The notes under the pieces were generated by a model. That model was given only the letters and a program-made list of their open reading frames with translations, had not been told where the DNA came from and made no database searches. A program made the translations under genes and the position numbers. A stretch of 64,000 nucleotides of DNA from Mya arenaria. Lineage: Eukaryota > Mollusca > Bivalvia > Myida > Myidae. Within the stretch, counting starts at the first letter, position 1. The number at the start of each line of letters is the position of its first letter. The stretch is from assembly GCF_026914265.1 (NCBI RefSeq), contig NC_069138.1, positions 31,174,262-31,238,261 of the forward strand, given 5' to 3'. Shown here one piece after another: positions 1 to 29,289 of the stretch.

Positions 1-239
1 AAAAACTCCCTTTGGCGTACTCTATTTCAATGACACACATTTTGTCTACTAAGTAACAAAACAATTTATGAAATTTTATTTAATCTCCTTTTCCTCAAGT
101 TTTAATGTTATGAAATATGCCTGATTCAAGAAAGTTATGACAAAGTGTTATTACGACTTTATAATGCTTTATTTGAAGAAGTCACTACTTGTTTGCCTTG
201 GCTTTATTAATAGTCTAATAATGTATGTTTATTTCAAAG

Positions 240-1493
240 GAGAGTCACTGAGGTATGTGATAGTATCCACGAGACGAGTCCGGAAACTGAGATTGTTTTA
301 TGTTCTATTCTGCCACGAAAAAAGAATGACAGACGAGTATCTTCAACATTAGCGAGAGTCTTCAACAGATGGATCCAGAATGCTAACACCATGCTAATGG
401 ACATTTCAGAGGCCATCCCATACATCAGATTCCTTGGATATGGAGCTCAGGTATAAATCAACAAAATAAGTTTATGCAATACAGAAATAAAAGTTGTAGA
501 TATTTGGCAAATTTAAGATGATCCTTATTTATATAGACAGGTAGAAATATGTAACTGTAATGCATTTTTATGCCTTTGTGGATATGGGTTGTCATAATGA
601 TATTGTTTATTTCATTGGTATACATATATCATTATTATAAGTCACGTGACCTGCCCATGTTAATTTCTCATATTCCCATCATGGGCAATTTCGTACTGTC
701 ACACACTGACAGTATCGTTTTGACCGGTTGACATGATACTGTCACATAGCACGCACGTCTTAAAATAGGCATTTTTTGGTTTCCCAAGTCTGAGGTGGTA
801 AGCGCTTATTAAAATGTATTGTGAATCTGGTTACAACCGTGTTTGCCTTATTTCTAAACAACATTTGCAACAAAATGACAGCTAAAGTAAACAAACAATA
901 ATTACAGAATAAATTGATTAAACTTGAAAGTTGTGTTATTGTAAAAATCTTATATATCATGTATATAAATGTAACTGTGTTCGGTATAATAAAATAAATA
1001 TTGCATGGCTTCCAGTGTGACAGTACATATTGTCAACATTCGGGTAAATACTGTTACCCTCGGCTTCTCCTCGGTAACAGTATTTCCCTCATGTTAACAA
1101 TATGTACTGTCACACTGGAAGGCATGCAATATTTATATAATATTCACCAACTTTTTCAAAAACAGTATATGAGCAATATCATTATTTTTGTTTCTGTATC
1201 TCCGTTAACAAGATAGTATATTGAAGATAGCAAAGATGAAGACTTAATATTCCAATGATTGAAAAGTTTGTTAAACCATGCATTCTGTTTTTATATACAA
1301 TTAAGGAATGTGCTGATGTGTTGGGTCGTGATGGACTTCATCTGAGTCGTGTTGGTGGTAGACATTGTAGTCAGGTGATTGAGGAGGATGTGTATTCCTG
1401 GAGTGAAATAGCCTATCAGCAGGATGTACATTGGAATGAAGACATACGCCAACCACATTCAGCAGAGATTGATGCATCAAGCTTTGACCAGTG
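240..1493 (+). CDS. Two exons encoding the C-terminal half of an SGNH-hydrolase-like domain
   Basis: Exon 240-450 (acceptor after 'tttcaaag', donor 'cag|gtataa') reads through 'EIVLCSILPRKK' and ends 'RFLGYGAQ'. Exon 1306-1493 continues in phase with 'GRDGLHLSRVGGRHCS'. The D-x-x-H followed by a small loop and Gly is what the last catalytic block of SGNH/GDSL esterases looks like (catalytic Asp and His), and the preceding beta-strand plus 'ILPR' is typical of SGNH domains found in invertebrate repeat-related and zinc-finger proteins. The nucleophile Ser block would lie upstream of the window, so I cannot tell whether the fold is catalytic. Assignment to SGNH is inference from these motifs only. 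Confidence 0.5.
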
Positions 1494-4400
1494 GTATTTG
1501 TTTCAAATATATTACAATTCAGCTGAGTTAATTAGTTTTTTGCCTGTGTAAAATATCCGAATATTGTCATTACCTCAGTGTTGTTTAAGGGTATAAGATG
1601 AACATGTCGTGTTGATGAATTAACATGAAATATTTTACAATGATAAGAATTATATTAAATGTTGGCATTGTTCGATACTGTCTCACTTAATTGCTTGTTG
1701 TATGATGCAAGGTTAAGTATGACTCTTGTTCGGTTTGTAATATGTTAGTCAGTTAAAAGAAGGATGTCCATTTAATTATAGTTCATATGGTGTTCCTAAC
1801 TCCCTACGTCTGAGATATTAAAAACAATATTTTCCTGGTGCCTTATTTTTAGCTCTGACTATTTTCAAAGCCTGGCAGCTGCTGTTGAACCAGTCAGTGA
1901 CCAGAATGTCCAGGCCAGCAAGCAGCCTCTGTACTCGGAAATAGTCCGTTTGGTAATACAACACTTGCTCTAAATGGATGTCATTTGCTAGATGAATAGT
2001 TATAATTTATCAAAAGCATTGAATTCTCTGATAAGATGCTTGTGTTGGTTGGTAGATATAGGATGTTCATTCATAAGTTACCATTAACAGGTAATTCAAA
2101 CAATTATGAACCTTTTCTAATTTGATATTCGTAACATTTGGTCAGTCATCAAGTTAGTCTTTCGGATGAACAAGCCCGAATTCATGTATAAATGCTTGGC
2201 ATTTGATTTTTTTAACAAGCCCTGCAGTATAAAACCCAGAAATTGAGGAAGCCAAAACACATTTTACCAGTGCAGGGATGGGGCTTGTGCTAATATATAT
2301 TTTATCTATTTTGTGTCGAAAGTAAATTAACACTTATTTACTAAGGCAAAAGTGGTCAATGTCAAGTGTTTTAACCTTAGCATGGAAGAATCAAATATGT
2401 TGTGTGTTTTTTGCCTTAATTCCTATTTTGTACCACTGTTCTTTTTATTTTGAAAATGCCTCTATTCAGAGGAGATAACAAAGGTTATTCTTAATTATAG
2501 TGACTTCATAAAACAGATGAACTGAACTTCATATTATGACCGCAAAAGGAACATTTGTTTTATTCTTACAGCCAGCAGCTGAAGTTCCAGATGTTACCTC
2601 AGTGCAGCATAATGTGAAGTTACCAAGGCGCAATGTATTGAAGGTCTCTGTTATGTTTGTTTTGTACTTAAAATATATATTATAACATAATTATTTAATA
2701 AATATAGGTAATAGTGCAAAAAAAACTTATGTCAATCTGAGATTCCTGTGCTGGTGTTCTTTTTGAAAGCCTGTTAAGCTGTTTCAGATGGGCAATGCAA
2801 CAATTTTAATAAAATTTAATGAGCATTTACATAACTAAACTTAAATACATTCATTGATGAAAACATTTAAAGCATGTCTGTTTCTTGTCTACCTTTGGTA
2901 GGGACAAGGGTTAAACAACCTGAAACATTTCCATATTTTGCTATATTTTTATATATCCTGATTGACTTATACCCAGAAGGTAGCCAACGTTTTTTGTCAT
3001 TAATATTTAGGTTGATGAATGTGCTAGATCAGCCAGACCATGTAACCACAGATCAAACAAACATCGAAGGGCAAGGCGAAGAAAATTTACGCAACACAGA
3101 CAGCTGAAAGTTCAAAGGTAAATGAAATATATTTGCTGATGTTAAAGCTTCTGTTTAATTTACTTGTCAAATCAATTAATTGATGTTACAATTATGTTTC
3201 CACATGTATATTTGTAGATCTGAGCAGTATAAAGATCACGTTGAAATTCTGTTGACATCTGATGTAACGGTAAAGGTGAAGGCAGACAATGTACATAGCA
3301 TCTGGATGGTAAGTTACAATATTCCTGTAGTGATGTAGTTTCTTCAAAGAAGATTAAAATCAACATAACTATCAAAGTTAATCCTAATCATTTTCTGAGC
3401 CATAACAATGTCCTAGTGTTCTGATGTGTTCTTGAAATAGAGAGAAGAAACACTTTTGATGGTGGTTATGGATAATAAATGCTTTGATATCTTGCATATT
3501 TAGTGCCCGAAAGAAGACGCCATTACCACAAAGAAGCGCCTACCTGTCTGCTCTACAATGACTGGAGTTAAGAAGATAAACAAGGTAAGAACATGCTACA
3601 TGAAATTGCAATTTGTAACAAATTGCAGCATCATTTAAATTAAATACAATTCAGTTTTCCAATAATTTAATAAAAAAAGGGTAGGCAAATGCAAAACCAA
3701 TGCCTTTGTTAATCTATGAGGATTTCATTCCCAGCTTCATTTAGTAAAACCAGAGTTATAGCCCTTGAGTTTGCATTATTATTATTATCATATTTTTTTT
3801 TTATTTATTTCTAAGAATGTTTTGGTGTATTGCTTTGATGCTTTCTGTTGAAATGTTTTAACGTGCAATATTACGAAAAGTGTCGAAGTGAATTGTAAAA
3901 ACCTCATTTTATAACTTGAAGCAAGAAATATTGAATGCATTGTGTCCGTTAACTGTAGCAGACATGGTTTGACTGCCCCCTTTGCCCAGTGAAGTGTTCT
4001 AGAGAAGATTTCCTACTGGACCATTTCTGTCGACGCCATGTACCTGGAGGGACCAAATACAAGAAGAACACTGACAATTCTTTCTGTCATCGGTATGTTA
4101 GATATTTACTGAGTAGTACGGTAAACAAGTTTTTTTTATATCAGTGAATGAGTTTTACCTCTTAGTTTATAATTATACATTTTATAATAAATTTTTCATA
4201 GTCCTTGGCATCTTCATTTCTTACATGACTACTTTGTAAGTTTTAATAAGTCGCTATGATTAAATTGGTATATTTTGATCCCCCACCCCCTTTTCAAATT
4301 TCCCCCTGGCCCCTTAAATTTATTGACTGATATAAAAATGCTCAACACGGGTCTAACCGTCTTGCATATTTGTCAGGCATTGGAAACAGCTTAAATTGAT

Positions 4401-7400
4401 ACCAGCTGGTGTTGATGTAAACATTTACATGTAAAAAGGGAGGATTGTTACATTGTGTTATGCAATAAGACAGAGCATGAACACATATCCAAATGTGATA
4501 CAGTCATTTATAAAAAACACACAACCCAAACCACTATTTAAAACAAGAATTTGATGAAAATGTGGCAATAAATTTATATTGGCGTAAGATACATTGGATT
4601 GTCTACTTTCTCTATGTGACATTCCCCCATCCCCAGTGAAAGATATGTTTATAATTGTATATATGCATTAGTTTTGTTTATTTACTGAATCTTAATGCTC
4701 ATTAGATAATCAATGATTCTTGCTTGTCAATAATTGTCAATTCATTGTAATGTTAATCAAATTTAATTGAATTAATGCCAAAAATGACAGATTAATATGT
4801 AATATTCATTATGTGCTTTCTGTCTAATAAAAGAAATTTATCAGTAAAACAAAATGGTTATTTACACTGTTCTGAATTTTAGTCAGTTTTAATGTCAAAA
4901 CCATACTTTAGTGCAAACAGGGTCCAGGAACTCAAATTATAAATTTATGATATCCTTTCTGAAATGACATTTATCTTGCTCGTTCAGTGAAATAAATTAC
5001 AATATTACATTGAAAAACAAAACAAGCATCATCTATATATAATGAACTTTCCATTAGGGTAATTTTAATGTTAAAATAATAAAAATGGATATTAATGTTT
5101 AATGAAATTATTTTATTACAATTTACGAACAAGAAATCAACGAAGAGCAGCAGAAGTCAGCCAAACTCGAAGAGCACCATTTCAACATCCAGCCTGAACC
5201 CTGTAGAAAAAACTTCACCTCCCCATCAAGGTTTAATTTCTTTCTTGGGTACTAAATCAAACATTGTTTATATAATTTTTTCATGTTATTCATGCTTCTT
5301 TTTGTCAACACTTACTTATCAACTTAATATCTGTGTAAAAATAAAAGTTATTAAGGCTCAAGTGTACATGAATTCAGAAATTTGTGATTTTCTTACAGAT
5401 GAATTGGATATCGCAGATCACGCCGATTTCTCCAAATTAAAATTACTTTTATCAAATGATGTTGAGCAAAATCCTGGACCTGTGAGTTATAAAATATGTT
5501 AACATGAAAATAACGAAGAGATCAAAATTTATGAAATATAAAGTTACTATTATTAAGTTAAGTGCCAACCTTCATCTTCTGCATGTTATCCTAAAGTTTG
5601 TTTATGACATTTAAAAAAATAAAACAGTTTAAACTGGTCTTGCTTTAATGACTAATATTAAGAAACATGCAATATAACAGATTTGTAATAAAAATTTTGC
5701 ATTTTCTATGGTCTGAATGAAGGTAATAATTCAGAAAAATATTAAATGATTTATTTACCATATAAACAAATTTCTTCTGTTTTTGTCCCCAAGACCTATC
5801 ACTGTGAATGGAATAATTGTGGATTCATCGGGCTAACAACAACCAGAATGGGACAACACCTGCGACAACATGGACGAGAAGAGGAATGCAAATGGGCGCA
5901 ATGCAATGGATTTCAGCGAACGAGCTACGAAGACCTGGAGTTACACATTATACACGACCACTTCTTTGATGTATGGTGCAAAAAATTTTTTTGTAATGTT
6001 TGACTTTTTTGCATGTTTATAACACTAAATAGAAAATTAAAAATGTAATGACAGGGTTTATCAATAGCCATGATGATCTCCTTAACCTACTGAGCAATAA
6101 ATAATTAGCTGTTTCATTCCCTTGTGTTCATGTATGACACTGTTAGACATCTTTCTGTCAATTTTATTTCCCAAATGATTTTTTATTTAGGACAGAATCA
6201 CCTTTCCTTCCCTAGATGATTGGCTGGAATATCTCCCAGAAAAAAGAATCGACCCAGAAACCACTGATTTACGCTTCTGTCCAAAACACCTGGTAAGACC
6301 TTTTCAATAGTTTCCATATTTGAACTCAATGTGGAAATAAAGGAGTCTTTTTCAGCAATATTTCACTCACAAATATGAGAAATATTCAATGTCTTTTACA
6401 GAGAAGCAAGCTGAAGTTGTTACTGTTTGATGAGGACTACCTGGACATGCCGACAAACAAATCATACACAATGAGCGACCACCTGTGTACACTGGATTTT
6501 GAAAGTAATCATTATACTAAAAATTTCTTAAATATTGAGAAAATATTTATTGAAAAAAGACTTTTGTTAGGTGAAGACTGGTCAGATTATAATGGTAAAT
6601 TTGAGGAAAATGACACTGATTCACTTTTAAGTCCAGATCCAAAAGTCCGCAAGCACAGGCAGTTCCATGGTGGAAAATATCAATTCCACTTTGTCCAAAC
6701 TTCACGTCCTGAATTAAGTTCAAATTCTCATTCTGGAACTAAGTTAAAGCCTGTAAAAAGAAAAGCTTCCTGTACATTTCCAAATGAATGGTCAAGTATC
6801 TTGCTGACAAATTTACGATTTTGTTCTCATGCCATAACTATGCAGAACTTATTTCTGAATTTGATTTTAGACGAAGGAATTGTTGATTGCAAAAAACTAA
6901 GTTTTCTTAAGTTAGAATATGACACTGCTCTATTAGCATCAGCCAAAACCTGCACCAAAGGTGTTTTTGTTTGTCATGTATTTAAAATCATTGTAGACAA
7001 TGCTGAATATCTGTACATCCGCTATGTTGAGTCTGGAGTGTATGCTGGCCTAATGGAACAGAAATATTTGCAAGAAATCAAAGATACATTTCATTACACT
7101 GACAATAATATGTTTTTGCATAATACATTAACAGTGGAAGATATACAGAACATGGAATCTGATCATATAAAAGATAAAAAGGAAAAGCCGAATACATATA
7201 AGCCCAGCAGCAGACTTAATGATTTCTTTAAGCAAAAATTCATTCCAGGTATTGCTGATACAAGACAAATGAAGGACACTGATAATATTAATTGTTTATC
7301 CTTTGCAGTATCAATTTTGCCCTTTTCTTCAACCTCAACTGCCAAGTTTATGGATGCTTGTACTGCAGGAAAGGAAGACCGTCTTCAAGCTTTGCTTTTA

Positions 7401-8441
7401 GATTTTAGGCACTCAAAATTGGAACAGGTTCCTCGAAACTCGAGGGAAATATTTCAGCAGCAATATGAAGGAGAAGAAACCCTTTTAAGTCAGTCAAAGG
7501 CATTAAATTGTTTACCAGGTGATGTCAAAAGAAAAACCGAACTATTCAAAGGTGATCCAAAATTTGCATCCAACTTCATAAACAAGAAAAAACCTCAACT
7601 CAGAACATCACTTAGATATCTTACTTTCAGTCTCTTTCTGCAGAATGAAATTAATACAATTTTCACTAAGTATAGAACATATTACCCAGATTTAAATGCG
7701 GTTCAATGTGAGGTTTTAGAAATTCCTGCACTAGAGAGGCCATCTAAGAAGAGGAAAAGCACAGCCTCTGTGAAGGTGACAAAAGATGTGGAGCCATTGA
7801 GTGTTATGCAGGAATCAAAAAAATCTATGTATGAACAATTTTCTATTGATTTAATAGAGGATGGAAAGATATATATTCAGGTAGCTGAGGAAGACACCAT
7901 GATATGTTGTATGAATGATTATAATGATTCTGGTTCTTTAAGAAAAGAAGTGTATGTTTATACCACTTGGCTAAAGCAAGAATCTGGAGACTACTTCCAT
8001 TGTACCTGCAGTATATATAGAACTTTATTTGATAAAGCTCATAGCCAAACTCTAAATTATTCAAACAGGAATAGCTGCATGCACTGTACATTCCTTAAGT
8101 GTATTGTTCTTCCAAATCTACATATAGATGAAAGGGCTACAGAAACCAAAACCCGTAAATTTGTTCAGGAGGGAAAGCAGTGTGCTGGCAAGGATTTGAT
8201 TGAATTAAGTGACTTTAATGGTACACGGAAATTTTCAGTTTTGGCAGAAGGAGAGACTAAACCTGTTTTTTTATCACTGAGTCACAACAAGGCCAAAGCA
8301 AATTATACTGTGACCTGTCACAATGGCGAGTGTCAATCAAAGAAGGGACACAAACGATATTTAAATAACTTGAATTCTTCCAATCTTTGCAGACATTTAT
8401 TTGTGCTGAAACATAATCCAGAATCCTGGATTGATTGTTAA
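240..8441 (+). CDS. Multi-domain SGNH-like / C2H2 / 2A / SWIM-like protein, 5'-truncated by the window
   Basis: I do not recognise this gene as a named family. Thirteen exons chain with matching splice phases: 240-450, 1306-1493, 1853-1952, 2572-2643, 3011-3117, 3218-3308, 3504-3584, 3962-4092, about 5154-5230, 5399-5481, 5794-5970, 6191-6292 and 6402-8441, giving roughly 1,150 codons. In order they show the end of an SGNH-hydrolase-like fold, an Arg/Lys-rich stretch (exon 3011-3117) that could be a nuclear signal, a C2H2 finger, a Ser-rich linker, a 2A peptide, two C-x4-C fingers and a long region with SWIM-like clusters. The first exon lies outside the window. The acceptor near 5154 is the least certain: another at 5134 would bring a stop into frame. 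The combination suggests nucleic-acid binding with co-translational separation of two products. A domesticated or active DNA-transposon protein (KDZ-type transposases carry CxC/SWIM-like motifs) is an alternative. Confidence 0.65.
996..1134. repeat. Near-perfect inverted repeat (hairpin) in an intron
   Basis: The arms at about 996-1058 and 1073-1134 are reverse complements apart from a handful of mismatches. Both contain the unit 'cagtgtgacagtacatattg', and only about 14 bases ('ctcggcttctcct') separate them. It sits in the intron between exons 240-450 and 1306-1493. Related short palindromes ('tactgtcacacactgacagta', split near 695-715, and 'gatactgtcac' near 734) lie about 300 bp upstream, which suggests a fold-back element larger than the hairpin itself. 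Confidence 0.8.
3962..4092 (+). CDS. C2H2 zinc-finger exon
   Basis: The exon translates to 'TWFDCPLCPVKC...HFCRRHV'. The spacing C-x2-C, then His-x4-His, is a C2H2 zinc finger that binds zinc and usually nucleic acid. The acceptor is 'tgtagcag' and the donor 'cg|gtatgt' (phase 2). The preceding exon 3504-3584 is Lys-rich and joins in phase 0. The finger lies upstream of the 2A peptide, so it would end up in the N-terminal product if skipping occurs. Confidence 0.65.
4093..5153 (+). other. Intron with no recognisable feature
   Basis: This stretch is AT-rich intronic DNA between the C2H2 exon and the Ser-rich linker exon. I see no coding exon, tandem array or terminal inverted repeat in it. 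A small exon could hide here, because the phase of the linker-exon acceptor is not fully settled. Confidence 0.5.
5399..5481 (+). CDS. Exon encoding a 2A-like ribosome-skipping peptide
   Basis: The exon (acceptor 'ttcttacag', donor 'cct|gtgagt') encodes 28 residues that end in 'LKLLLSNDVEQNPGP', an exact match to the 2A consensus D-(V/I)-E-x-N-P-G-P with the usual Leu-rich run before it. In 2A peptides the ribosome releases the chain at the final Gly and restarts at Pro, so one mRNA yields two proteins. Here the skip would separate about 380 residues (SGNH-like part, first finger, linker) from about 770 residues (two fingers, SWIM-like region). The exon stops exactly after the final Pro codon, so the 2A is a discrete cassette exon in phase 1-0. 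Reading past the donor gives only five more codons before a stop. 2A peptides are known in picornavirus-like viruses, in some invertebrate non-LTR retrotransposons and in sea-urchin NLR proteins. The peptide is very clear; its use in this gene is inferred from splice-phase agreement on both sides. Confidence 0.85.
5794..5970 (+). CDS. Exon with two C2H2-like zinc fingers
   Basis: A strong polypyrimidine acceptor ('tttttgtccccaag') opens the exon and 'gat|gtatgg' closes it. Finger 1 reads C-E-W-N-N-C...H-L-R-Q-H (C-x4-C-x12-H-x3-H) and finger 2 reads C-K-W-A-Q-C...H-I-I-H. The C-x-W-x2-C form resembles the first fingers of GLI/ZIC-type proteins, although I do not claim that family. The exon directly follows the 2A exon, so the new polypeptide would begin with the 2A proline and then this pair of fingers. 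Confidence 0.75.
6191..6292 (+). CDS. Exon linking the zinc fingers to the terminal region
   Basis: The exon runs in phase 0 from acceptor 'atttag' to donor 'ctg|gtaaga' and encodes 'DRITFPSLDDWLEYLPEKR' followed by a Cys/His-containing end. It connects the zinc-finger exon with the long terminal exon without a frame change. I recognise no motif in it. Confidence 0.65.
6402..8441 (+). CDS. Long terminal exon with SWIM-like zinc clusters
   Basis: After acceptor 'tcttttacag' the frame stays open for 679 codons up to TAA. No repeats, signal peptide or membrane segment are visible. Two Cys/His clusters near the C-terminus look SWIM-like: 'FHCTCSIYRTL' followed about 27 residues later by 'SCMHCTF' (CxC...CxH), and 'TCHNGEC' followed by 'LCRHLF'. 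Lys-rich patches ('PSKKRKS', 'KKKPQLR') could be nuclear signals. SWIM zinc fingers occur in MULE and KDZ-type transposases and in host proteins such as ZSWIM. I see no DDE/D catalytic domain, so a transposase is not supported. It could equally be a mollusc-specific gene. Confidence 0.6.
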   Translation, partial: RSKLKLLLFDEDYLDMPTNKSYTMSDHLCTLDFESNHYTKNFLNIEKIFIEKRLLLGEDWSDYNGKFEENDTDSLLSPDPKVRKHRQFHGGKYQFHFVQTSRPELSSNSHSGTKLKPVKRKASCTFPNEWSSILLTNLRFCSHAITMQNLFLNLILDEGIVDCKKLSFLKLEYDTALLASAKTCTKGVFVCHVFKIIVDNAEYLYIRYVESGVYAGLMEQKYLQEIKDTFHYTDNNMFLHNTLTVEDIQNMESDHIKDKKEKPNTYKPSSRLNDFFKQKFIPGIADTRQMKDTDNINCLSFAVSILPFSSTSTAKFMDACTAGKEDRLQALLLDFRHSKLEQVPRNSREIFQQQYEGEETLLSQSKALNCLPGDVKRKTELFKGDPKFASNFINKKKPQLRTSLRYLTFSLFLQNEINTIFTKYRTYYPDLNAVQCEVLEIPALERPSKKRKSTASVKVTKDVEPLSVMQESKKSMYEQFSIDLIEDGKIYIQVAEEDTMICCMNDYNDSGSLRKEVYVYTTWLKQESGDYFHCTCSIYRTLFDKAHSQTLNYSNRNSCMHCTFLKCIVLPNLHIDERATETKTRKFVQEGKQCAGKDLIELSDFNGTRKFSVLAEGETKPVFLSLSHNKAKANYTVTCHNGECQSKKGHKRYLNNLNSSNLCRHLFVLKHNPESWIDC

Positions 8442-8589
8442 TAATTATTTACATGGTTGTAAACTAAAAGTTCAAAGCATAAATATCTTATATATATAAT
8501 TACATAAAGAAAAATGTTGATTGTTTATAAAGCTATGAATTAATATGTTTGTTATAGAAATTCATATCCCTCTTTCAGGTTTGAGGCAG

Positions 8590-8669
8590 ATTTTCCACAG
8601 CGTCTTCATCCAATCTACTTGTGTCGGCATGTGCAACTACTTAATCTGAAGGCTTGGAGGGAATTGTAG
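8590..8669 (+). CDS. Alternative short last exon
   Basis: If the terminal exon is cut at the good donor 'gaaa|gtaatc' (exon end 6504) and joined to acceptor 'tttgaggcag' (exon start 8590), the frame continues as 'NFPQRLHPIYLCRHVQLL' and ends with TAG at 8667-8669. Phase agrees. A second acceptor, 'cctctttcag', lies ten bases upstream. The short peptide contains 'LCRH', echoing the 'LCRH' of the long isoform. This makes 6505-8589 a coding intron that may be retained or removed. Confidence 0.45.
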
Positions 8670-9077
8670 CTCAGTGCTTCATCCTTTATGTGGATAAACA
8701 AAAGGGAACCAGAAGGATCGATCTAAAGACATTCTTTTCATAAATCTGTTGGTGTCAAACAATATAATTTTGATTGATCAGTCTTCTTAGTGCCTGTAGT
8801 GAACAGTATGTATTGCATTATATGTAGTATAATAATCAATTAAGTATTGATAAATGTCTTACAATTATCGTATAACCCTTTATATCAAGTTTTGTTATTT
8901 AATTGTAGAACAGCAAAAGAAACATTTGTGGATTTTAAAAGATAAGGCAGAGACTATGTTAACACTGTAAATGTTCAACTGGTGAATTCCATTATTTGTT
9001 GCAATATCTAGATTTTGATAATGTAAGGAATGATTTCTGATTAAAGTATTACAATAGGAATCCAATCTCTGTTATGC
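8670..9077. other. 3' flank of the 2A gene
   Basis: AT-rich non-coding sequence holding the likely 3' UTR of the short isoform. I see no other element here. Confidence 0.4.
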
Positions 9078-9402
9078 TTAAAGATGCACTTTTACTCCCA
9101 AATTAGATATTCCACAGTTTATATGATTGTTTTTTATATAAAAAAATAAGATTCTTATGAAGGATACAGAGTTGAATTTGAAAGAAGGTTGCAGGAAACA
9201 TAAAGATCATAATCAATCTTTTAGCACTCACCAATCATTTAATATTTTTAATTTTAGGAATTAAATACACAGTTACAATATTGTTATCAGGAATCAATAT
9301 TTTCCATAAATGCATTATTTAGTAAGTAGTTAAAGGTTTATCAGTCGAAATGTATGTTTCATACATGTGTATATTTTGATTTTGAATAAGAGTCACTTGA
9401 AA
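9078..9402 (+). mobile_element. MITE family 1, copy 1 (TTAA-flanked)
   Basis: The left end 'ttaaagatgcacttttactc' and the right end '...tttgaataagagtcact' form imperfect terminal inverted repeats. The interior is shared with 13521-13898 and, reversed, with 21321-21618, for example 'aagtagttaaaggtttatca' in the first two. The element is non-coding and about 325 bp long, and it probably inserts at TTAA. This copy has a damaged right end. Confidence 0.7.
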
Positions 9403-12400
9403 GATTTAGCTAAAAATGTTAGAAGAAGAAACTGAAATTGCCCAATTCTGTACAAATAATTAAGGTCATACATTCGCTTATACACATTTTATCAATGTGG
9501 AATGTTAACTTAAATTGTTTCTTAAGTATGATATAACAATCTATATTGCATAAGTAATTGAAGATATTGTTAAATACCACTTGTATGTGTACATGCTGGG
9601 TACCCCTTGCACATAATGAAAGCTAGGTATGAATAATATACGATTTTAAAATAATTGCAGTAAAAGACGGCAGTAAACTGAATGGAAGCTGTACACACAC
9701 TTATAAGTACACATTCACGTGCTGTTTCACAACATCTCATGTAACTACTGAGAACACATGTTTACAGTACATATATTACACTGTTTTATTTGGACTCATT
9801 TTATAAAAAAAACCCATTTAATTCCTGTTTTGTTATTATTTGTTATAAATCAAATGCTTGAAGTCATGTTTTATGATCTTATAATAAAATTTTATTACGG
9901 GTCTAGTTGTTCGTTGTAGCATTGTTGAGTGAACGTCTCTGATTTTGCCTCATAATTAATGAATTTCACACGAACATGTGTATGGAACCTTCTGTAATGT
10001 TTGTGATGTATGAGATTTGCTGTTTGGAGACTTTCAGACGGAATTCTTTCCTTAGAATTAGAATGTACCATTGTTTATTATCGCAATGTCTGTTAACATT
10101 GCCAGCAAAGCACAATAGTAGAATATGGAGTCTGCAAAGAAACTGGAGCAAGTAAATGAAATGCTAATTATTACAAACTTTCAGTCGTTTATGGAACAAA
10201 ATGTAATAAATGCCTCATTGGCCAAAGTCAAAAGCTAATACACAAAAAGGTAAAAGGTAAGCCTGATAGATACTTTTTATTCCTCCATGAAATGAAGAGC
10301 AAAACATTGATATATATACTAATAATGACACATATTATGAATTACATTTAACACAATAATATTCAAACAATACGAGTAAACCAAACATGCATATTATGTA
10401 CACAAGTAGACAAACAGAATAAAATATCAAGTACTCTCGAAAGATAACAAAATTAAGCATTGGTAAGAAATATTTAGATTTAGAGCAGCCCTCTAATCCT
10501 AGGTATAATTACACACATGAATGCAAAGCTAGTACGAAAAACGAAATAACTAGGAAAGCAAAGTGTGATTTTACAATATACCTAATTCTGGATCAACTTA
10601 ATTCAACAAGTTATTGACACAAGCTACATATGATTTTAGCAAGGTACAAATTCTGAAAATTGATATCCCAATGTCCGTTTTGATCAGTCTGGTCCCTCGA
10701 GAGATTGTTTTGAAACTTACCATAGGGAGGTAGATCTAGGGTTTCTCGACCCTTAAAGTCACGCAAATCACTTCGATCCGAGTAAACTTCCCGCTTTGTG
10801 GTAGATTTGTCATATTTGACTAACTCCTTTTTTATTAAACTAGACCCTCGATCAGATAAAGTAATGGCTGTGGTCATGCTTGAAGGTCAATATAACTTGA
10901 CCATGACAACATTCGTGACCTTGACCAACTTCCATATTTATGTTAAATATCCCACGTTAAAAAAAAATCAGACTTCGATCCAAGTGTATATTTTGTACTA
11001 ACTAAATTCTGCTGGTTGGAAATGTGTTCACCTATAAGGTTTGCACTGTTCAAATATGGCCATTTTGATCTCAAGACTTGTGGACGGACGCACACTCTTG
11101 ATCCGTGTCATCTCAGGTGCCGCCGCTTTAAAATATTGAGAAAAAGGTGTTTTTTACGTCTTGTGTCGGTATAATTGACATACACGGCAAAGTCCCGATA
11201 ACGGTTTTTAACTTTTATGGCCAATTTGAGGGATAAGCACACGAATTAAATGGGCTAAAGTATGGTCTTACAAGAATGCTTCGAATGGTAGATTGCTAAA
11301 AGTCGTGAACACCCGGATCGTGCAGAAAAGGTTCAAGAGCGGGTTCTAAAACCTGGCCAATAAACGGGGGAATGGGCATTTTGGAAATGTATCGTTTAAC
11401 TCATAAAGAAGTTTAAGGCTAATCAGTCATATGCTATCGGAATGGTTACAGCAATAACAACTGAGTGAGGGCTATCCGCTTTTCCTAGGCACCAGCTAAA
11501 GAGTAGAAACGGTTTAAACCGATGTACCATCTCGGTGCGTATTCAAGAGCGGTTAAGAACACATTGGACAAAAGATGAAAGCCCAAATAGCCTTAAATGC
11601 TATAATATTTGGCATTTTCTCTGAGAAAAAACAACATCATGTTACAAAAACGTTCATGTCTGCTTAATTGAAGTGCGGTCGTCCGTCTGTACGAGTAAAA
11701 TAGGCTTTCAACGCTGACTGCGGCTGGTGAAAACCCTTTTTTGTAATATTATTCACTATTTTACACCTGGATTTGGACAAACTGCCAGGTCTTAATAGAT
11801 AGTTTTTACCATGAATGCCACTTTCTCTTGGAGTAACAACTGCTACCGGGAACCGGGTTATACACATTTACCGGAAATTCTCTGTATTTTTCGGTGTCAA
11901 AAAAAATCATGAAAATCTGTTTTATTCTGTTCTGCTGGAAATTTCAATGAAAAAGGCTGTGGTCGGTCAAGCAAAGATTATACAAAGTATAATTCCACGT
12001 TAGATCGACCCTCAGCGTACTCGCATGATGAATTGGCCGACAGAATTATAAAATGAGGTTCTGTATACACAACTTTTCACAAAGTTACATTACATTACCT
12101 TATTTTTTAAATAAAATATTCTATTAGTCTATGATTTGCAAATTGTTATTTGTCAGTCAAATTTGTACCTATAAGTAAAAACGTTCGACTGCCAAATTCA
12201 TGTAGCCATAGGTACAATATTGTTTTCTTACATTGAAACGGGGGTTTAAGTTGAATGCCATTTAATCACTTTTATATATAAAGGCAGCAATTCGTATGCA
12301 GAAACTGTAGTGTCATTTCAGAAATTATGTCATCGACATTGTGTTTAAGCTCTGTGCTTACCTCTCTTCTTCTTTCAATAAAGTGTGTCACCAATTAATA

Positions 12401-13105
12401 GGTATCACTGCACTGTTTAATTGTCACTGAGGGGATTGAATTTCATAAAAATGGAAATATTTTTTTGATATTGTCACTTTCTCAAACAATGAAATATCAT
12501 ATTCAAATGATATTCTCAAAATTCACTTCTTTCACAAGGTGAAACATCATGCAACATGATATTGAAATAAACATTTTTCTTTTACTATATCCACAAAAAG
12601 ATGGCTATAAAATGACTTAATGTACATTCTATATGAAAGTGAATTTATTAAGGATATTGCACCGATGATATTGTGTCCCAGCCCTGTACATACTAAAGTT
12701 CAATATAATGCGAGAACAGGAAAATTTTCGAAAAATTATCTTTTATATGTGCACTGTTTGAGATGATCAGATATCTGTTTTATTTCATGGAAATATCTTT
12801 TTAAAGCATTGGAAAGCACTCGCTGTTATATACAATGTAGATATGAAAAAACCTCATGGTATACCTTTTCAGGTTCAGTGGGAATCTAAATATGTCTATA
12901 AAAATCCCTCAACTACTCAATGATCAGCCAAATTCAAACATACCGTAACATGTTCAGTATTTTATTCAATAATATAACATAGTACATTATAATAATTTTT
13001 CACAGGTCTATCTATGGCACAATGATGGTTAATGATTACAGAATAACCTAGAACTTAAAAAGATCATATAAAACAAGTTTGATGCTAAAATCACTAATGT
13101 TTCTC
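9403..13105. other. Intergenic region without a supportable gene
   Basis: I find no exon chain, tRNA, tandem array or clear transposon. The part at 10.7-12.0 kb is somewhat less AT-rich and has short open frames on both strands, none recognisable. A TATA-like 'ttttatatataaag' near 12271 is followed about 110 bp later by 'caataaag', which could be a tiny transcription unit, but this is weak. Confidence 0.4.
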
Positions 13106-13345
13106 TTAAAGCTACACTCTCACAGATTTAATGTTTTTACAACTTAATGAAAGTTTCAAGTTACATAAAACATGAAAATCGATAGGAGATAAATGCAGTA
13201 CTATAAATAAAATATGTATTAAAAATAATACATATTTTTAATACAAAGACACAAATTAAAGAAAGCAGACTGTCAGGCCATGATAAAGATTTGTGGAGAC
13301 ATAACCTCAAAGGCATACAAAGACATAAGACTGTGAGATGCCTTG
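13106..13345 (+). mobile_element. MITE family 2, degraded copy
   Basis: The left end 'ttaaagctacactctcacag' matches the family-2 terminus seen at 23295, 47600 and 62994. The right end ('ctgtgagatgccttg') is only partly conserved, so this is an old copy. Confidence 0.45.
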
Positions 13346-13520
13346 TTAGTACATTTCAATGATTAAGAATGGATCATTAGTTCCACTAACTCTGACAGAA
13401 TTTACTTCATATCATCTAACTACTACATAAAATATCAGAGGTCAAATTCTTAGGCAATACTAGCAAGTGCATACGTGCAAAGACACATAGATCATAATAT
13501 ATCCACATTAAACACATTTT

Positions 13521-13898
13521 TTAAAGATGCACTCTTACTCCCAAAAAGGTTTACCACTACTAATACTATTGTTTTAATATTGTGAAAAGAATAAATGAAT
13601 GTTGAAAGCAATGGTTCTCATGAAGGATACCGATTTTGATTTGAAAGAAATGTGCATAAAACATGGTGTATCTACCTTATGAGACTATTAAAGTAGATCA
13701 CAGTAAATCTTTTAGCATTCATCAATCATTAAATATTTTTGCGTTTTCTGTTATTAAATACAGGGTTACAAACTTGCTACCAGTAATAAATATGTTCCAT
13801 CAATGCATTATTTAGTAAGTAGTTAAAGGTTTATCACTCAAAACATATGTTTGTTATACATATGTATGCATTGATTTTGAATAAGAGTGTCACTTTAA
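13521..13898 (+). mobile_element. MITE family 1, copy 2 (TTAA-flanked)
   Basis: This is the best-preserved copy. The left end is 'ttaaagatgcactcttactc' and the right end 'gaataagagtgtcactttaa', so TTAA flanks both sides. The interior is non-coding and alignable with 9078-9402. A lone terminus of the same family ('gtgacactcttattcaaat') occurs near 14145. Confidence 0.8.
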
Positions 13899-14289
13899 CA
13901 ATTAATTTGATTTAAAAATTACCTGACAAGAATTAGGAGCTTAAGAATATGGAATTTAAAAAAATAATAAAGCAATACTTTTCATAAAATTAAAAGGCAG
14001 CAACAACAGTCACAGTATGTTTTAGCATATGCTATTTAAAACAATCTCTCAATATGGTCCAACTCGTACCCTACACATAAAAAGTACAAGTTGTATTTAA
14101 AGATAAATTCATGGTAAGTAAACAGCTACAAATTTAAAAGAAGTGACACTCTTATTCAAATTAACATTTTCTGTTTTTTTTTTTAACAATGTATCTTCTT
14201 ACATTATGATGTAATATGTGCTTGTCAAAAGCAATAGAAAAATCAATTTAAAAAGTAAACAAGAATCGTGATGTGACAATAATTGTTTT

Positions 14290-14650
14290 GTTAAGGATTG
14301 GCAGAAGAAGTTCAGTTTCAACTGCTGTCTTCTATTTTTATAACAGTGACCTAGATCCTATGCGCCCAAAACACAATCTCATGAAAGTTCTCAATAAACT
14401 CTTCCTATATATCAAGTTTGGTCACAGTATATCAACCATAACTTATGGTATTCAGTACCAAAAAGTAATATTTTTTTAGTAACAGTGACATTGACCCTAA
14501 GGGGCCCAAGGCATTCGAATGAAAGCTCTCCATTAACTTGTCATATATACCAAGTTTGGTCACACATTGTCACCCCTTACTTATTCAGTACAAACTATAA
14601 TTGTACTTTTCAGCAATACTGACTTTGACCTAGATCATAACCCAAAACAC
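14290..14650 (+). repeat. Older diverged tandem repeat, left part
   Basis: Units of roughly 160-170 bp begin near 'taacagtgac' and carry 'cccaaaacacaatctcatga' and 'aagtttggtcac'. The same units resume at 16124-16350, so a single older repeat was split by the 181-bp-array element between them. Confidence 0.65.
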
Positions 14651-16123
14651 AATAAACAAGAGCTGTCACAGTATGTGACGAATGCCCCCGAATGTGACAT
14701 TGACCTACGAACAAGGCCAGTACATGAAAAGTTGATCTTGCCTTTATGTGTCAAATACATATGGCAAGTTATTTTAAATTTCCTCTGAACATAAAAAAAT
14801 ACCACCCATACTTGACAACCTACACTGTTATGTCCTTATATTCAGAATTCCCTTGTGAATAAACACTTAGTGTATCTTTCACCTTAGAGGTAGGGACATG
14901 GGTCTTGCACAGGACACGTCGTCTTCGTATGTGGAACACATGTAGCAAGTTATTTTAAAATCTGTCTTTACAAGGGAAAGTTACAGCCCGGACACGACAA
15001 CCTATACCCTATGTCCTTGTATGCAGCACTCCATTGTAAATAAACACTAAGTGTGACCTTGACCTTTGAGGTAGGGACACGGGTATTGCACGCGACACAT
15101 CGTCTTGGTATGTGGAACACGTGTGGCAAGTTATTTTAAAATCTGTCCATACAAGAGAAAGTAACAGCCCGGACACGACAACCTATACTCTATGTCCTTA
15201 TATGCAGCACTCCATTGTGAATAAACACTAAGTGTGACCTTGACCTTTGAGGTAGGGACACGGGTTTTGCACGCGACACGTCGTCTTGGTATGTGGAACA
15301 CATTTGGCAAGTTATTTTAAAATCTATCCATACAAGGGAAAGTTACAGCCCGGACACAACAACCTATACTCTATGTCCTTATATGCAGCACTCCATTGTG
15401 AATAAACACTAAGTGTGACCTTGACCTTTGAGGTAGGGACACGGGTCTTGCACGCGACACGTCGTCTTGGTATGTGGTACACATGTGGCAAGTTATTTTA
15501 AAATCTGTCCATACAAGGGAAAGTTACAGCCCGGACACGACAACCTATACTCTATGCTTATATGCAGCACTCTATGGTGAATAAACACTAAGTGTGACCT
15601 TGTCCTTTGAGGTAGGGACACGGGTTTTGCACGCGACACGTCGTCTTGGTATGTGGTACACATGTGGCAAGTTATTTTAAAATCTGTCCATACAAGGGAA
15701 AGTTACAGCCCGGACACGACAACCTATACTCTATGCTTATATGCAGCACTCTATGGTGAATAAACACTAAGTGTGACCTTGTCCTTTGAGGTAGGGACAC
15801 GGGTTTTGCACGCGACACGTCGTCTTGGTATGTGGTACACATGTGGCAAGTTATTTTAAAATCTGTCCATACAAGAGAAAGTTACAGCCCGGACACGACA
15901 ACCTATACTCTATGTCCTTATATGCAGCACTCCATTGTGAATAAACACTAAGTGTGACCTTGACCTTTGAGGTAGGGACACGGGTCTTGCACGCCACACG
16001 TCGTCTTGGTATGTGGAACACATTTGGCAAGTTATTTTAAAATCTGTCCATACAAGGGAAAGTTACAGAGCCGGACGGACGGACGGTGCAATTTTAATAT
16101 GCCCACCTTCGGGGGCATAAAAA
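14651..16123 (+). mobile_element. Non-autonomous repeat element carrying a ~181-bp satellite array
   Basis: The element runs from 'caagagctgtcacagtatg' to 'cttcgggggcataaaa'. Subterminal 'tgcccccga' and 'tcgggggca' are inverted copies of each other. Inside are about seven units of 180-181 bp, marked by 'ggtagggacacgggt' near 14890, 15070, 15251, 15432, 15611, 15790 and 15971. Most units are nearly identical, so the array is young or homogenised. The tail has 'ggacggacggacgg'. It is inserted in the older repeat described on both sides. No protein is encoded. Tandem-array-bearing elements with this tail are common in bivalves; I do not assign a superfamily. Confidence 0.75.
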
Positions 16124-16350
16124 GTCTGTATGAACTTTCATATAAACCAAGTTTGGTCACAATATGTCGACCTTTAAGTTAATCAATACCAGTTCTTTTG
16201 CTTTTAATAGTAACTTTGACCTTTATATTGATCCCAGAAGCCTAAAACGCAATCTCATGAAAGGTCTTCATAAAGGCTTCCTACATACGAAGTTTGGTCA
16301 CTATATGTCAAACCTAGCTAAAATTATTTTACACATAAGGTGACTTTGAA
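16124..16350 (+). repeat. Older diverged tandem repeat, right part
   Basis: Continuation of the repeat at 14290-14650, with 'aaaccaagtttggtcac' and 'gcctaaaacgcaatctcatg'. It confirms that the satellite-bearing element inserted into a pre-existing array. Confidence 0.6.
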
Positions 16351-17260
16351 GACCCTTCCACCAGCCCGCCCAAACAATTAGCTTTCAAAAACCCTGTTAA
16401 GAATATATAAATGTGCCTGACATAAGAAATAAAAATGAAAAAAGGGCAATAATTTGTATTTAGTTAAAATGGAGTTATGTCACCTTATTGTAAGATGTTC
16501 ATCATTAATTGTGCAAGGTATTAAGTCCATTGAATGAAGGCTATTGAAGTATTAACCTCATTATGTAATGACCCTGAACAACTGTATTGAGTATTAAGTG
16601 ACTTTAATGAAGGGTTTTGCAGTTATGAGTGAAAATCCCTATGAGTGAAAATCCCAACTTGGTCTTAAACTTTAACCGGACGCTAAAGCCAAAGCAGATG
16701 CTGAGGCGAGTGGTATAACCCTCCTTATTATTCAAATAGTCCAGCTAAAAATGTTGATAAGGTACATACCAGTTTGATATTTTGTCCATTTAAAAATATA
16801 ACCACTGGAGGGAAGGCATTTATTAAGTTTTTATGCCAACCCCATACAAAAGCAAATGTGCCTTTTGGGGTGCAAATTAGCAAAAAAGCCCAACCATATA
16901 TTATTAAAAATCTGCCAAACCCGGTGGTTATATGTTTTAGGAGAATAGCCCTAAGTGTTAATTACACTAAATATCGCCTTATTACAGCTTTGTTATTGAC
17001 TTAAGACATGAGATGTTTATAATGTGTATTAGAGAGGTCCAATATCTATCGTTGTTGTTTAAGTTTAAGTCCCAGTCTAATCAAGATATCAAACTGGTAT
17101 GTACCGGTACTCCCATATTTTATTGAAATGATTCCAATAACACCCTTATCTCTGTTACTTAAAAATACAGTTGTCATAACAGAGCCCGTCCTCTTTAAGT
17201 CCACATTGGCAGTGAGATTAAATTAAAATGTGATTCTGTTCATTCTTCTTCAAACAGCAT
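16351..17260. other. Non-coding stretch
   Basis: No gene or clear repeat. A short direct repeat ('tgagtgaaaatccc' twice near 16626 and 16641) is present. Confidence 0.4.
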
Positions 17261-18637
17261 TCATCGTGAATCTCGGACATCTTTAATCTATTGGAAATAG
17301 AAAGAAGACCTTCATAGAAATTATTTCCATTTTCAGTTTTATGTATTTCATCATTATGGCAATTAAATAATAGTACAAATAATATCAAATTATTATAAAG
17401 ATGATTTTGACTTCTGTCATCTTCATTGCATCTAATCCATCTACATTATACTATCCTTTTACAATTGACATCTTTTTTAAATATATATATATATATATAT
17501 AAATACTGAATGTCTAATAAACATTACCTGTAAAAGTGTCATGACTTGCACCCATATCTGTTTTAACTGAGTCTGTATCTGAAAAGAGTGCATAAAATCA
17601 AAGCTTCACATACAAATTAGCTTCATGTAATAAAGAAATATATAATGATGCTATGAAGACAAACATGCACTTATAATAAACTAGAGGCCTATGTTCTACT
17701 GGCTGGGTTTGTGTGGTCAACATCACTGTTTTCGAAAAGAACCAACCCCTTATGGATTCTGAATACTCATTTTTTCATAAAGGCCCATAATCTTATCATT
17801 TCAAGGTTTTTTTAAAGGAACCAAGCTCTAATGGATATCAAAATACTGTACAAGTTTCATCAAGATACAATCAAAACTGAAGACTGTATCTTGTTAACCA
17901 GCAACTGCTTACTGACACACTGATTTTTTTACTATCAAGGCCCATAATCTAGGCATGCATGGGCGGATCTGGCTGGTTTTCAAAAGGAACCAAGCTCTTA
18001 TGGATATGTAGATACTGTTCAAGTTCCATCGAGATACAATCAAAACTGAAGGCTGTATCATGTTAACGAGCAACTGCTTACTGACACACTGATTTTTTAT
18101 ACTATCAAGGCCCATAATCTAGGCATGCATGGGCGGATCTGGCTGGTTTTCAAAAGGAACTGAGCTCTTATGGATATGTAAATACTGTACAAGTTTCATC
18201 AAGATACAATCAAAACTGAAGGCTGTATCATGTTAAAGAGGAATTGTTTACGGACGCACGGAGGCACATACTACGTACACACTACCATCGCATAAGACTA
18301 AATGACTAAACAATAAACCAGTCCATTAGTTGAATAATTAAATTATATGATTTGTAATGTTCAGTCAACATTTAATGTATTGCACAAGCTCATGGTTGTT
18401 TAACATGTTAAACTTGTTAGGAATTAAATATCCAGTTAATAAACATATTATTCTTTGGGTTTAATTGCTGTAACGTTTGTTATTCAAATTAAATGACGCA
18501 ACATGTTCAAATGGTCAATTCAGCCCATTTCTAAATTTACCATTACCTGGTATGTTTGAATTGTGTTGACCAGGTGGATGAGGTTAATGGAGCAATGGAT
18601 GATAAAGCGGCTGACTGCGAGTGCTGACATCTCTAGG
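17261..18637 (-). CDS. Candidate small minus-strand gene, last three exons; product unknown
   Basis: Three minus-strand exons chain in phase 0: 18637-18547 (ends 'IHLVNTIQTYQ', donor cag|gtaatg), 17578-17528 (acceptor 'actcttttcag', 'IQTQLKQIWVQVMTLLQ', donor cag|gtaatg) and 17287-17261 (acceptor 'tctatttccaatag', 'IKDVRDSR' then TGA). The middle exon has near-ideal splice sites and an amphipathic, helix-like sequence. The first exon could start at an internal ATG ('MSALAVSRF') or continue from an upstream exon. In another frame the 18.6-kb exon reads 'FLKPRDVSTRSQPLYHPLLH' and stops, so its assignment is open. No family recognised. Confidence 0.4.
17480..17501. repeat. (TA)n microsatellite
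   Basis: About ten TA dinucleotides lie in the minus-strand intron between the exons at 17261-17287 and 17528-17578. Confidence 0.9.
17690..18300 (-). repeat. ~170-bp tandem repeat, three units
   Basis: Units are marked by 'ggcccataatct' (near 17783, 17939 and 18109), 'agatacaatcaaaactgaa' and 'ctgtatc.tgttaa'. The second and third units share 'aggcatgcatgggcggatc'. The block ends in 'cggacgcacggaggcac', a bivalve-type repeat tail. Short open frames here are by-products of the array. Confidence 0.75.
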
Positions 18638-19777
18638 CTTCAGGAACTGATTCAGAAAATTAATTGAAATTAATTCTTCTTGTATATTTATGTTTTTTCC
18701 CATTAATGATTTTAAAAAAAAACATAATTTCATTGCTTTTAAAGTATAAGCATGACAGCAAAAACAAATACTATAAATAAGCATATATATGAGAGACTGT
18801 CCAAATTTCATTAATCTGCACATTTGTAGAATTCATCATGAAAAATGGGCACATAATATTTGTTCTTTCTGAAGTTAACTGTATTACAAAAATTGTAATC
18901 AGATTTTGACTAGATTATGTACTGAACACATATGCCATGTAATAAAATAAAACTATGCCCTACATTCCTGTTTCAGTTCTTGTTTGGAGCACACCCAATA
19001 TCAATGCAAAAGGTGCATCGCACATTTTTGTTCAAGATACATGTTTACAAGCGGCGCCATGTATAAGGCATTTTGAATAAAAAAAAATTTCCTTTTGTAA
19101 GTAAATGATTGAACACATCAATGAAATGACATACAGAATTATCATATCAACATTACAACAAGTTTATAATACTACTTGTTTTCCTACCACAGATTCTTCA
19201 TGTTCTTTATGAAAAAGAAATTAAGAAAGTAGTGTTCATACATTTTGAATTTTTAATCCAGTGTTCTTTCTTACAATGAATGTAGTCAAATTATGTAGGG
19301 TTGAAGTATGTAGTTGCATTGAAAACATGAGAAAAGTAATGGGACATAAATCATTCAAAAAATTGTGTGCCTATGACAATCCTTTAAAAGAAAGAAGTTT
19401 GGAAGAAATTTATATACATAGAAAAAACATGATTATTTCATTTGTAGTACCGGTAATTCTTTTGCAAGGCCCAGAATCACGCAATGCATATCATTTGGTA
19501 AACAACACATTTTTCAGGCATGTGGGAAAAGGCTGTGACCTGTACTTTTGTTTTTAAACTAATATACGATACATTTAAGGAGGTTGCAATTATAAGTAAC
19601 TTCTACTTCAATGAAATCGGCTCGGGTTCATATAAATCAGAAAAAGAAAGATACAGAAATCGAAATGTTATATACTTAATACTCTGTGTACAGCACTGAT
19701 GATGATTGAATAACTGGTTATATACAAAACATTCCATATAATTTACATTGCATCAGGGACCCACCATCATCTTCAGT

Positions 19778-22571: not shown

Positions 22572-22639
22572 CTGTAACAATTCAAAACAAAATTTTACAA
22601 CTATAATATTAAATTGGGGTGGGGCATCATTTCAAGATC

Positions 22640-23200
22640 TGTTCAAAGACACAATTAAATCAGTGCCTGAATGTACAACAAGGCAATCCAAAGGACAGCT
22701 ATATCCCCTGCAAATAACATTCTCGGATATCTGAACATAACGATATTTGTTATTCATATTGTGTGTACTAAGTGTAGGACCTTTAAATGTTAGATGTGAC
22801 CTTGACCATTGAGTTATGGACACAGGTCAAGGTCACTGCAAATCATCCCAATGAGGACACATTTCTACCAGGTAATATGGTAATCCATTCCTGCAAGTTA
22901 TACTCCAGACACGAGCATGTGTACTATGGCCTTTAAATGTCAGATGTGACCTTGAACATTGAGGTTTGGACCTGGGTCAAGGTCACTCCACATCATCTCA
23001 ATGACAACATTTGTAAAAAGTTATATGGTACCCATCAATGCATTTGAAATATGGACCCGGATCAAGTTCACTGCACATCGTCTCAATAAGGACAACATTT
23101 GTACAAAGGAAAATGGTAATCCATTAATGCATAAGTAAGTTAAAGCCCGGACACGAAATGTTATGGACAGACAGACGAAATGCATTCCTATAATCCTCTC
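22640..23200 (+). repeat. ~130-bp tandem repeat
   Basis: Three diverged units carry 'aggtcaaggtcact' or 'gggtcaaggtcact' followed by 'atcatc.caatgaggaca' and 'tatggtaatcc'. The block ends in 'ggacagacagacga', a tail like that of other bivalve arrays here. It abuts the upstream side of the minus-strand exon at 22571. Confidence 0.6.
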
Positions 23201-23294
23201 CCCACTCTGTTGCAGGGGAATAAAATCAGAAACTTTTTAACAATCATCATTCAATGTCCGTGGACTGGAGTTACAAATTCAAAAATATTACAAC

Positions 23295-23645
23295 TTAAAG
23301 CTGCACTCTCACAAATTTACCGTTTTTACAACTTTTTTATTATTTGTCTTGGAATTAGCAAACTTTTGTGTTAATATCTGCAAACCAGTGATGAAAGACC
23401 GTTGGCAAAATGTCACATCGCAGATTTTCATATTTCCATTCCAAATTTAATGTTTTATGGCTTAGACGATTTAAAAAAAATGCATAAACATCAATTTTGG
23501 AGAGGAAATATGAAAATCTGCCATCTGATCTTTTGTCATCAGTCTTTTATTACTGGTTTTCTGATATTTACGCCAAAAACTGCTCGTTCCAAGACAAAAA
23601 TAAAAAAGTTGTCAAAACGTTCAATCTGTGAGAGTGCAGCTTTAA
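23295..23645 (+). mobile_element. MITE family 2, copy with long terminal inverted repeats
   Basis: The left end 'ttaaagctgcactctcac' and the right end 'gtgagagtgcagctttaa' are exact inverses flanked by TTAA. The inverted homology extends inward over 'acaacttttttatta' and 'ttgtcttgga'. It is non-coding, 351 bp. Open frames across it are artefacts of the inverted arms. Confidence 0.85.
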
Positions 23646-23689
23646 GTCAATTTACAAACTATCAAGGTACTGAGTATCAGTGAAAGTGG

Positions 23690-23805
23690 CTTAAGCTTTG
23701 GCTTTCAAGGGGCTTTCTCACGTAAGAAAAGTAAGATGCTGGGTTTCAAATTTGGCCACGCGGGTTTGAACCCAGTCTCCGACACATTTTTTTTTATATC
23801 AAAGC
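23690..23805 (+). ncRNA. Possible tRNA-derived SINE head
   Basis: 'gtggcttaagctttggc' resembles a pol III A box, and 'cgggtttgaacccag' is a B-box-like T arm about 65 bp downstream. A T8 run that could terminate pol III follows. No intact cloverleaf can be drawn, so this is a SINE fragment or chance resemblance. Confidence 0.3.
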
Positions 23806-29231: not shown

Positions 29232-29289
29232 ATGATGAGTTCCGAATTAGTTTTGTTTTTTATAAAGTCGCTTTCCCGTTCTTTATAAT

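Follow-up and report, generated by a model that had tools for sequence, protein, structure and literature searches.

Non-LTR retrotransposons of the APE type that carry a 2A (StopGo) sequence are reportedly described by Odon et al. 2013, and Rao et al. 2025 (Cell Rep 115822) is said to survey the 2A sequences of eukaryotes and viruses. As for SGNH esterases on mobile elements, a platyfish Helitron has reportedly captured an SGNH/GDSL gene, but this is another type of element than the one discussed here.

According to the available sections of PMC12846837, natural StopGo sequences are largely confined to viruses and are very rare in cellular genes; an L-rich type of lead is described for sequences with D at position p12, and G is strongly preferred before this D. 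That paper contains no word that starts with "transposon" or "transposase". The hosts of 2A sequences named in the accessible part of PMC11512398 are viruses, non-LTR retrotransposons and NLRs.

The DNA transposons of the KDZ (Kyakuja–Dileera–Zisupton) group are known independently. Zisupton is multi-exonic, and no target duplications were found for nematode Zisuptons, as stated in excerpts of PMC9297572; the target duplications are 8 bp long in Zisupton and 7 bp long in fungal Kyakuja, according to excerpts of PMC12730594. The passages on KDZ elements in these two papers do not mention SGNH or 2A modules, and neither "Zisupton" nor "KDZ" occurs in a paper on bivalve transposons (PMC10294476). 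Some LINE clades also carry an SGNH esterase, which is thought to aid particle assembly and membrane-dependent transport (PMC5408684, in the sections available); the terms "2A-like" and "ribosome skipping" do not occur in PMC5408684. In the literature searched, which was available in part and does not include Rao et al. 2025 or Odon et al. 2013, we found no mention of a 2A sequence in a DNA transposon. KDZ transposons and 2A sequences are both known; relative to this literature, what is new in the element described below is their union, together with a 4-bp target duplication.

The window analyzed here is the whole 64-kb stretch of Mya arenaria DNA. Exon 10 of a spliced gene on the forward strand (83 nt, 5399..5481) encodes KLKLLLSNDVEQNPGP, with a predicted release between G and P. 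The 2A core DVEQNPGP is preceded by the Leu-rich lead KLKLLLSN, and the exon stops directly after the proline codon. When the core is widened to (D/G/C/N)(V/I)ExNPGP, DVEQNPGP is the single match in the six frames of the window. The chance expectation of the core D(V/I)ExNPGP is 2.5e-5 in 64 kb, both strands considered, which rules out a chance origin. The exon is flanked by good splice sites, attttcttacag immediately upstream and gtgagtta immediately downstream, and joining exon 9 (5134..5230, forward strand), the 2A exon and exon 11 (5794..5970, forward strand) results in the in-frame reading ...PPHQDELDIADHADFSKLKLLLSNDVEQNPGPTYHCEWNNCGF.

The same exon 9–2A exon–exon 11 join is found exactly in 6 of the 11 predicted proteins of Mya family 1 (P0001–P0011), which are gene models and not reads: P0001, P0002 (a variant that reads SFDVEQNPGP), P0003, P0006, P0010 and P0011. 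Regarding the other models, the 2A exon is followed directly by exon 12 in P0008 and is absent from P0004 and P0005, and P0007 and P0009 start downstream of it. What the initial annotation had said of the exon itself, namely a 2A core that is exact and preceded by a Leu-rich run, good splice sites, a phase that fits both neighbors and an end right after the skip-site proline, is thus borne out. The exon also lies, as had been described, between the SGNH/C2H2 part and the C2H2/SWIM-like part of a spliced gene, from which one mRNA could give two proteins.

The SGNH-like blocks of this gene occur in the order ALVAGDSN and YIHLGSND (upstream of the window, in locus L009), then VLCSILPR and GRDGLHLS in the window. 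We take ALVAGDSN, YIHLGSND and GRDGLH to be the GDS, G.ND and D..H blocks of SGNH hydrolases. VLCSILPR belongs to exon 1 of the window (240..450, forward strand, with an approximate start, earlier exons being upstream of the window) and GRDGLHLS to an exon at 1306..1492 (forward strand, approximate borders). Exon 8 (3959..4092, forward strand) encodes a first C2H2 finger, WFDCPLCPVKCSREDFLLDHFCRRH; exon 11 (177 nt) encodes a pair of C2H2 fingers; then come exon 12 (6191..6292, forward strand) and the last exon (6402..8441, forward strand), which has a SWIM-like CxC...CxHC pattern and which extends, in other copies, into CxC4-like and KDZ parts. In intact copies the order is therefore SGNH esterase-like, C2H2, 2A, C2H2 pair, SWIM-like, CxC4-like and KDZ.

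The last exon of the window copy (exon 13) matches no Pfam family, and the nature of the gene became clear from the intact copies. In the copy that we call C11, the last exon consists of 1,354 codons and ends with a KDZ domain (PF18758, 44.6 bits, compared to a Pfam cut-off of 26.6); KDZ is also above the cut-off in P0012, P0014, P0023, P0024, P0027 and P0033. The CxC4 match that precedes it in C11 is below the cut-off (E 2.5e-4, 21.4 bits, compared to 26.9). The SWIM-like pattern is present in all seven proteins checked, without a Pfam match. The last exon is open to its end in two of the five other copies (C11 and C4), and there is an earlier stop in C3, C17b and C10.

Regarding the esterase, we built a profile from the N-terminal parts of P0025, P0047 and P0014, without any letter of the window. 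Its best solved match is the ORF1-encoded protein of PDB entry 4c1b (E 1.9e-11), which we take to be the ORF1 protein of zebrafish ZfL2-1. The next solved match is a putative platelet activating factor protein (E 2.6e-5). The matches to the Pfam esterase family are below the cut-off, with E 0.023 for the window piece and E 0.0066 for P0047, and P0014 and P0025 have no match to this family at 0.01.

The gene is not an ordinary host gene, a point missed in the initial annotation: it encodes the transposase of a DNA transposon that is present in multiple copies in Mya arenaria, a repeated element with inverted ends and target duplications. In the Mya genome (1.216 Gb, 18 contigs), we found at least 32 matches to the 2A exon, 23 of them at 90% identity or more and the rest at 81–87%, and at least 29 matches to exon 11, of which 27 at 95% or more; together these are at least 61 matches, on 14 of the 18 contigs. 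Most 2A matches top out at 90%, presumably because three aligned residues extend into the intron. When 12 distinct copies were examined for the 2A exon with its exact ends, 10 matched, nine being identical and one having a silent change, and the pattern had no match in the remaining two (L002 and L003).

The window copy is 36,439 bp long and occupies positions 1..33499 of the window on the forward strand, between sharp homology borders that are common to other copies, with ATAT on both sides. Its left end, given by the shared border, is at C17:31171322, 2,940 bases before the first base of the window; the left-end motif has no match within the window. The right end (33475..33499, forward strand) is an imperfect inverted repeat of the left one: the two pair at 20 of 26 positions and have GTAAGTTTTTCGGT in common. 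The target duplication ATAT follows at 33500..33503 (4 bp), and its partner before the left end is outside the window.

The sharp left border GAGAGGCCTGTTGTAAG is present in all six copies, each with a different flank, and the right end ...CTTACCACAGCCTAGTG in all five copies that were followed (that of the window, C3, C10, C4 and C11). The comparison of the window copy (33499) with C3 defined this right end, which was subsequently located in C10, C4 and C11 as well. In each of these five copies, the 4 bp that precede the left end recur directly after the right end, as ATAT, TAAT, CCAG, TTGT and GCAT; the last three duplications, those of C10, C4 and C11, are independent of the choice of the junction. 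The copies measure 36,439 (window), 24,963 (C3), 32,559 (C10), 33,478 (C4) and 35,705 bp (C11). Most long stretches of C11, C4, C3 and C10 that align with the window copy are more than 99% identical to it (about 94–98.6% in C17b); the spread was thus recent.

The window copy is itself a defective member of this transposon family. At 8436 it lacks 2.33 kb, corresponding to the CxC4-like and KDZ parts, a segment that is present in C11, C4, C17b and C10. Furthermore, the donor site of its exon 8 differs by one base from that of all six other copies, and the phase into exon 9 is shifted. Because of the loss of the KDZ part and of the change in the exon 8 donor, the transcript of this particular copy is unlikely to yield the intended products.

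The clam element resembles the KDZ transposons by its KDZ domain, its candidate CxC4-like part, its multi-exon gene and its inverted ends. It differs from those described, as far as the excerpts cited above go, by a target duplication of 4 bp instead of 8 or 7 bp and by a length of about 33 kb; by the length of its duplication, it is not a Zisupton in the narrow sense.

With the 2A-bearing non-LTR retrotransposons (L1Tc, APE-type) it has in common that a D(V/I)ExNPGP sequence is carried by a mobile element, but the clam element encodes a transposase and has neither an APE endonuclease nor a reverse transcriptase of its own, and its 2A belongs to a spliced gene, in which it is encoded by an internal exon. 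We considered that it might be one of these retrotransposons and rejected this identity, since the gene ends in KDZ, while the RT-like open reading frames at 24–29 kb belong to a nested insertion that is absent from C3. The likeness to the LINE ORF1 esterase is that 4c1b is the best solved match of the N-terminal profile of the relatives; in the clam element, however, the esterase part is followed by C2H2 fingers, a 2A and a DNA transposase.

The sea urchin NLRs are similar in that the 2A belongs to an animal genome and that fused and separate products are both possible, but there the 2A is N-terminal and has signal-sequence activity (PMC4981915, in the sections available), whereas in the clam it lies inside the chain, where it separates domains encoded by a gene of a transposon. 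Bdelloid LTR elements with an SGNH/GDSL gene, mentioned in the available part of PMC5408684, also carry an esterase on a mobile element, of another type. We incline, with reservations, to the view that a lineage of bivalve cut-and-paste (class II) transposons took up a LINE-type module, in which a 2A sequence follows an SGNH esterase, and works as a 2A polyprotein, a kind of element absent from the literature searched and set apart from the KDZ elements described there by its 4-bp duplication.

With the transposase end as query, relatives were found in Dreissena, Mercenaria, Mactra and others. This query consisted of residues 690–1354 of the last exon, which include neither the 2A nor the fingers, and returned 42 proteins from 4,778 candidates; with another protein search (best 7,999 candidates), the set of relatives amounts to at least 47 proteins. 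An alignment-based protein search (best 7,992 candidates) returned, among the matches listed, only P0014, and not even the members of its own alignment.

The NPGP motif is present in 15 of the 47 relatives: seven belong to Mya family 1 and two (P0020 and P0042) to Mya family 2, two are from Dreissena (P0012 and P0019), and the others are P0014 from Mercenaria, P0025 from Mactra, P0047 from Mytilus californianus and P0023. The 32 proteins without the motif start after the site or omit it in the model, so that its absence from the element is indistinguishable from its absence from the prediction. In all 11 proteins whose match to the finger pair begins within its first three residues (from Mya, Dreissena, Mercenaria and Mytilus californianus, and P0023), DVExNPGP directly precedes the pair. 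P0008 and P0025 have the 2A without the pair, and P0020 and P0042 have it without a match to the pair; P0004 and P0005, which have no 2A, match only beyond the pair, and P0009 starts inside it. The Hydra, Clytia and Lineus relatives have neither a 2A nor a match to the finger pair, the one weak match in Lineus (E 0.026) being elsewhere. In P0023, encoded on a contig of 6,366 bases, the 2A is within an uninterrupted open reading frame of 1,675 aa that spans several Mya exons, as a spliced message would.

When seven of the proteins with a 2A are aligned, the nine invariant columns that come first correspond to seven residues of the 2A core and two leucines of the lead, it being understood that several rows lack the N-terminal part, so that invariance upstream of the 2A is hardly attainable. 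The tree includes 30 of the 47 proteins (those with a DGT..G motif among the chosen rows; P0047 and 16 others are left out). All eight rows with a 2A are inside a clade of 20 (support 100/99). The distribution of the 2A on the tree needs six changes, at least four of which are imposed by branches with good support, and no more changes are needed in 98 of 500 shuffles of the labels, so that the tree does not demonstrate a single origin. Nor are the 12 rows of this clade without a 2A demonstrated losses, because none of them extends over the beginning of this pair of fingers. We also note that a second transposase family of Mya (P0020, P0026 and P0042) has RLLLANDVEQNPGP in P0020 and P0042; this is missing from the P0026 model.

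We propose that the exon is a 2A/StopGo module of a lineage of bivalve KDZ-type DNA transposons, in which skipping splits an esterase/zinc-finger protein from the transposase; judging from sequence comparison, this is probably the case. One spliced mRNA would encode the whole series of domains listed above, from the SGNH esterase-like part, the C2H2 finger and the 2A to the C2H2 pair and the SWIM-like, CxC4-like and KDZ parts. In the NPGP motif, the chain ending in DVEQNPG would be released and the ribosome would continue from the proline. The products would be an accessory protein with esterase and zinc finger, and a separate transposase with finger pair, SWIM-like and KDZ parts. It may be that the esterase has a role like that of the LINE esterase, in particle assembly and membrane-dependent transport. 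Some fused product is perhaps also made, since the Mya leads, which end in SN or AN, do not have the favored G before D. What we observe is the repeated element, with its ends and target duplications, the domain order, the exon in frame and the presence of the 2A at the same position in relatives, whereas the occurrence and frequency of skipping, and the function of the esterase, are inferred. The lead is L-rich, like motifs 2/6 of PMC12846837, and p11 is N in Mya, not G.

The same residue is what speaks for a second possibility, that the motif is kept but that skipping is weak or does not occur, the product being mainly one fused polyprotein. We consider this unlikely, since the core is constant in relatives whose N-terminal residues differ widely, and an idle octapeptide is not expected to stay fixed. 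The residues before D also vary among these relatives: they are SG in Mercenaria and P0023, and CG in Mytilus.

In a third possibility, the 2A would be N-terminal as in the sea urchin NLRs: a transcript would start from intron 9, and a short leader would be trimmed without any division of domains. An in-frame ATG at 5368 is open into the 2A exon (MNSEICDFLTDELD...) and leaves room for a shorter transcript that may have an N-terminal 2A. On the contrary, exon 9 is joined to the 2A exon in six of the seven Mya family 1 models that have a 2A, and in the Mercenaria, Mytilus and Mactra proteins the chain that has the 2A also has SGNH parts before it, which makes this explanation quite improbable.

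The initial annotation also proposed that inclusion or exclusion of the exon could switch between fused and split forms. This part of the proposal fails on the reading frame: the 2A exon is 83 nt long and is not frame-neutral when omitted, since joining exon 9 to exon 11 gives ...HQDLSL followed by a stop; the join of exon 9 to exon 12 is also out of frame. Translation that comes from exon 9 thus arrives at the transposase only through the 2A exon. Omission would preserve the frame in the case of the following exon, exon 11 (177 nt), and indeed the finger pair is missing while the 2A is kept in P0008 and in the Mactra relative P0025. The more general idea of a host gene of the clam in which the 2A exon is a switchable cassette could draw on the multi-exon structure, the good splice sites, and the P0004 and P0005 models, which do not have the exon. 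However, these two models join exon 1 straight to exon 12 and drop much else too, and the repetition, the inverted ends, the target duplications and the KDZ transposase, in addition to the broken frame, leave this explanation with next to no likelihood.

That the exon is a stray fragment of a LINE 2A, inserted by accident and meaningless where it is, is equally implausible: 2A sequences are known in non-LTR retrotransposons (sections of PMC4981915 and PMC11512398), but here the 2A occupies the same place in several genera with differing leads, and an old, retained capture of a LINE 2A is part of the explanation that we favor, not of this one.

If skipping works as we propose for the KDZ-type transposon, then ribosome skipping is retained by a lineage of transposons across several genera of bivalves. 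The relatives would provide diverged natural 2A sequences from animal genomes to test, LINEs and a DNA transposon would have modules in common, and the annotation of such loci as ordinary multi-exon genes would be explained.

Other features of the window deserve mention. A retroelement is nested in the transposon at 24216..29940 (forward strand) and is absent from C3. It has RNase-H-like/RT-like and tyrosine-recombinase-like open reading frames, in which a zinc knuckle is above the Pfam cut-off, RVT_3 just below it, and a phage-integrase-like match below it; two repeats of 181 bp, at 24208–24388 and 29411–29591, are 99.4% alike. Our reading of these features suggests a DIRS-like element. Also inside the transposon, at 14757–16076, are tandem units of about 180 bp that are also present in other copies, where their number differs. 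The 20 kb to the right of the transposase gene contain 149 open reading frames of at least 45 aa, the longest of 112 aa, and a further spliced gene may lie within these 20 kb. Compared to the window copy, C3 has about 2.3 kb inserted near its right end (L027 1-2011 and the end of L019). Last, outside the transposon, there is a minisatellite with units of 31 bp at 51561–52426, and the protein letters at 61298–61717 presumably correspond to the C-terminal part of an alpha-mannosidase, which they resemble.
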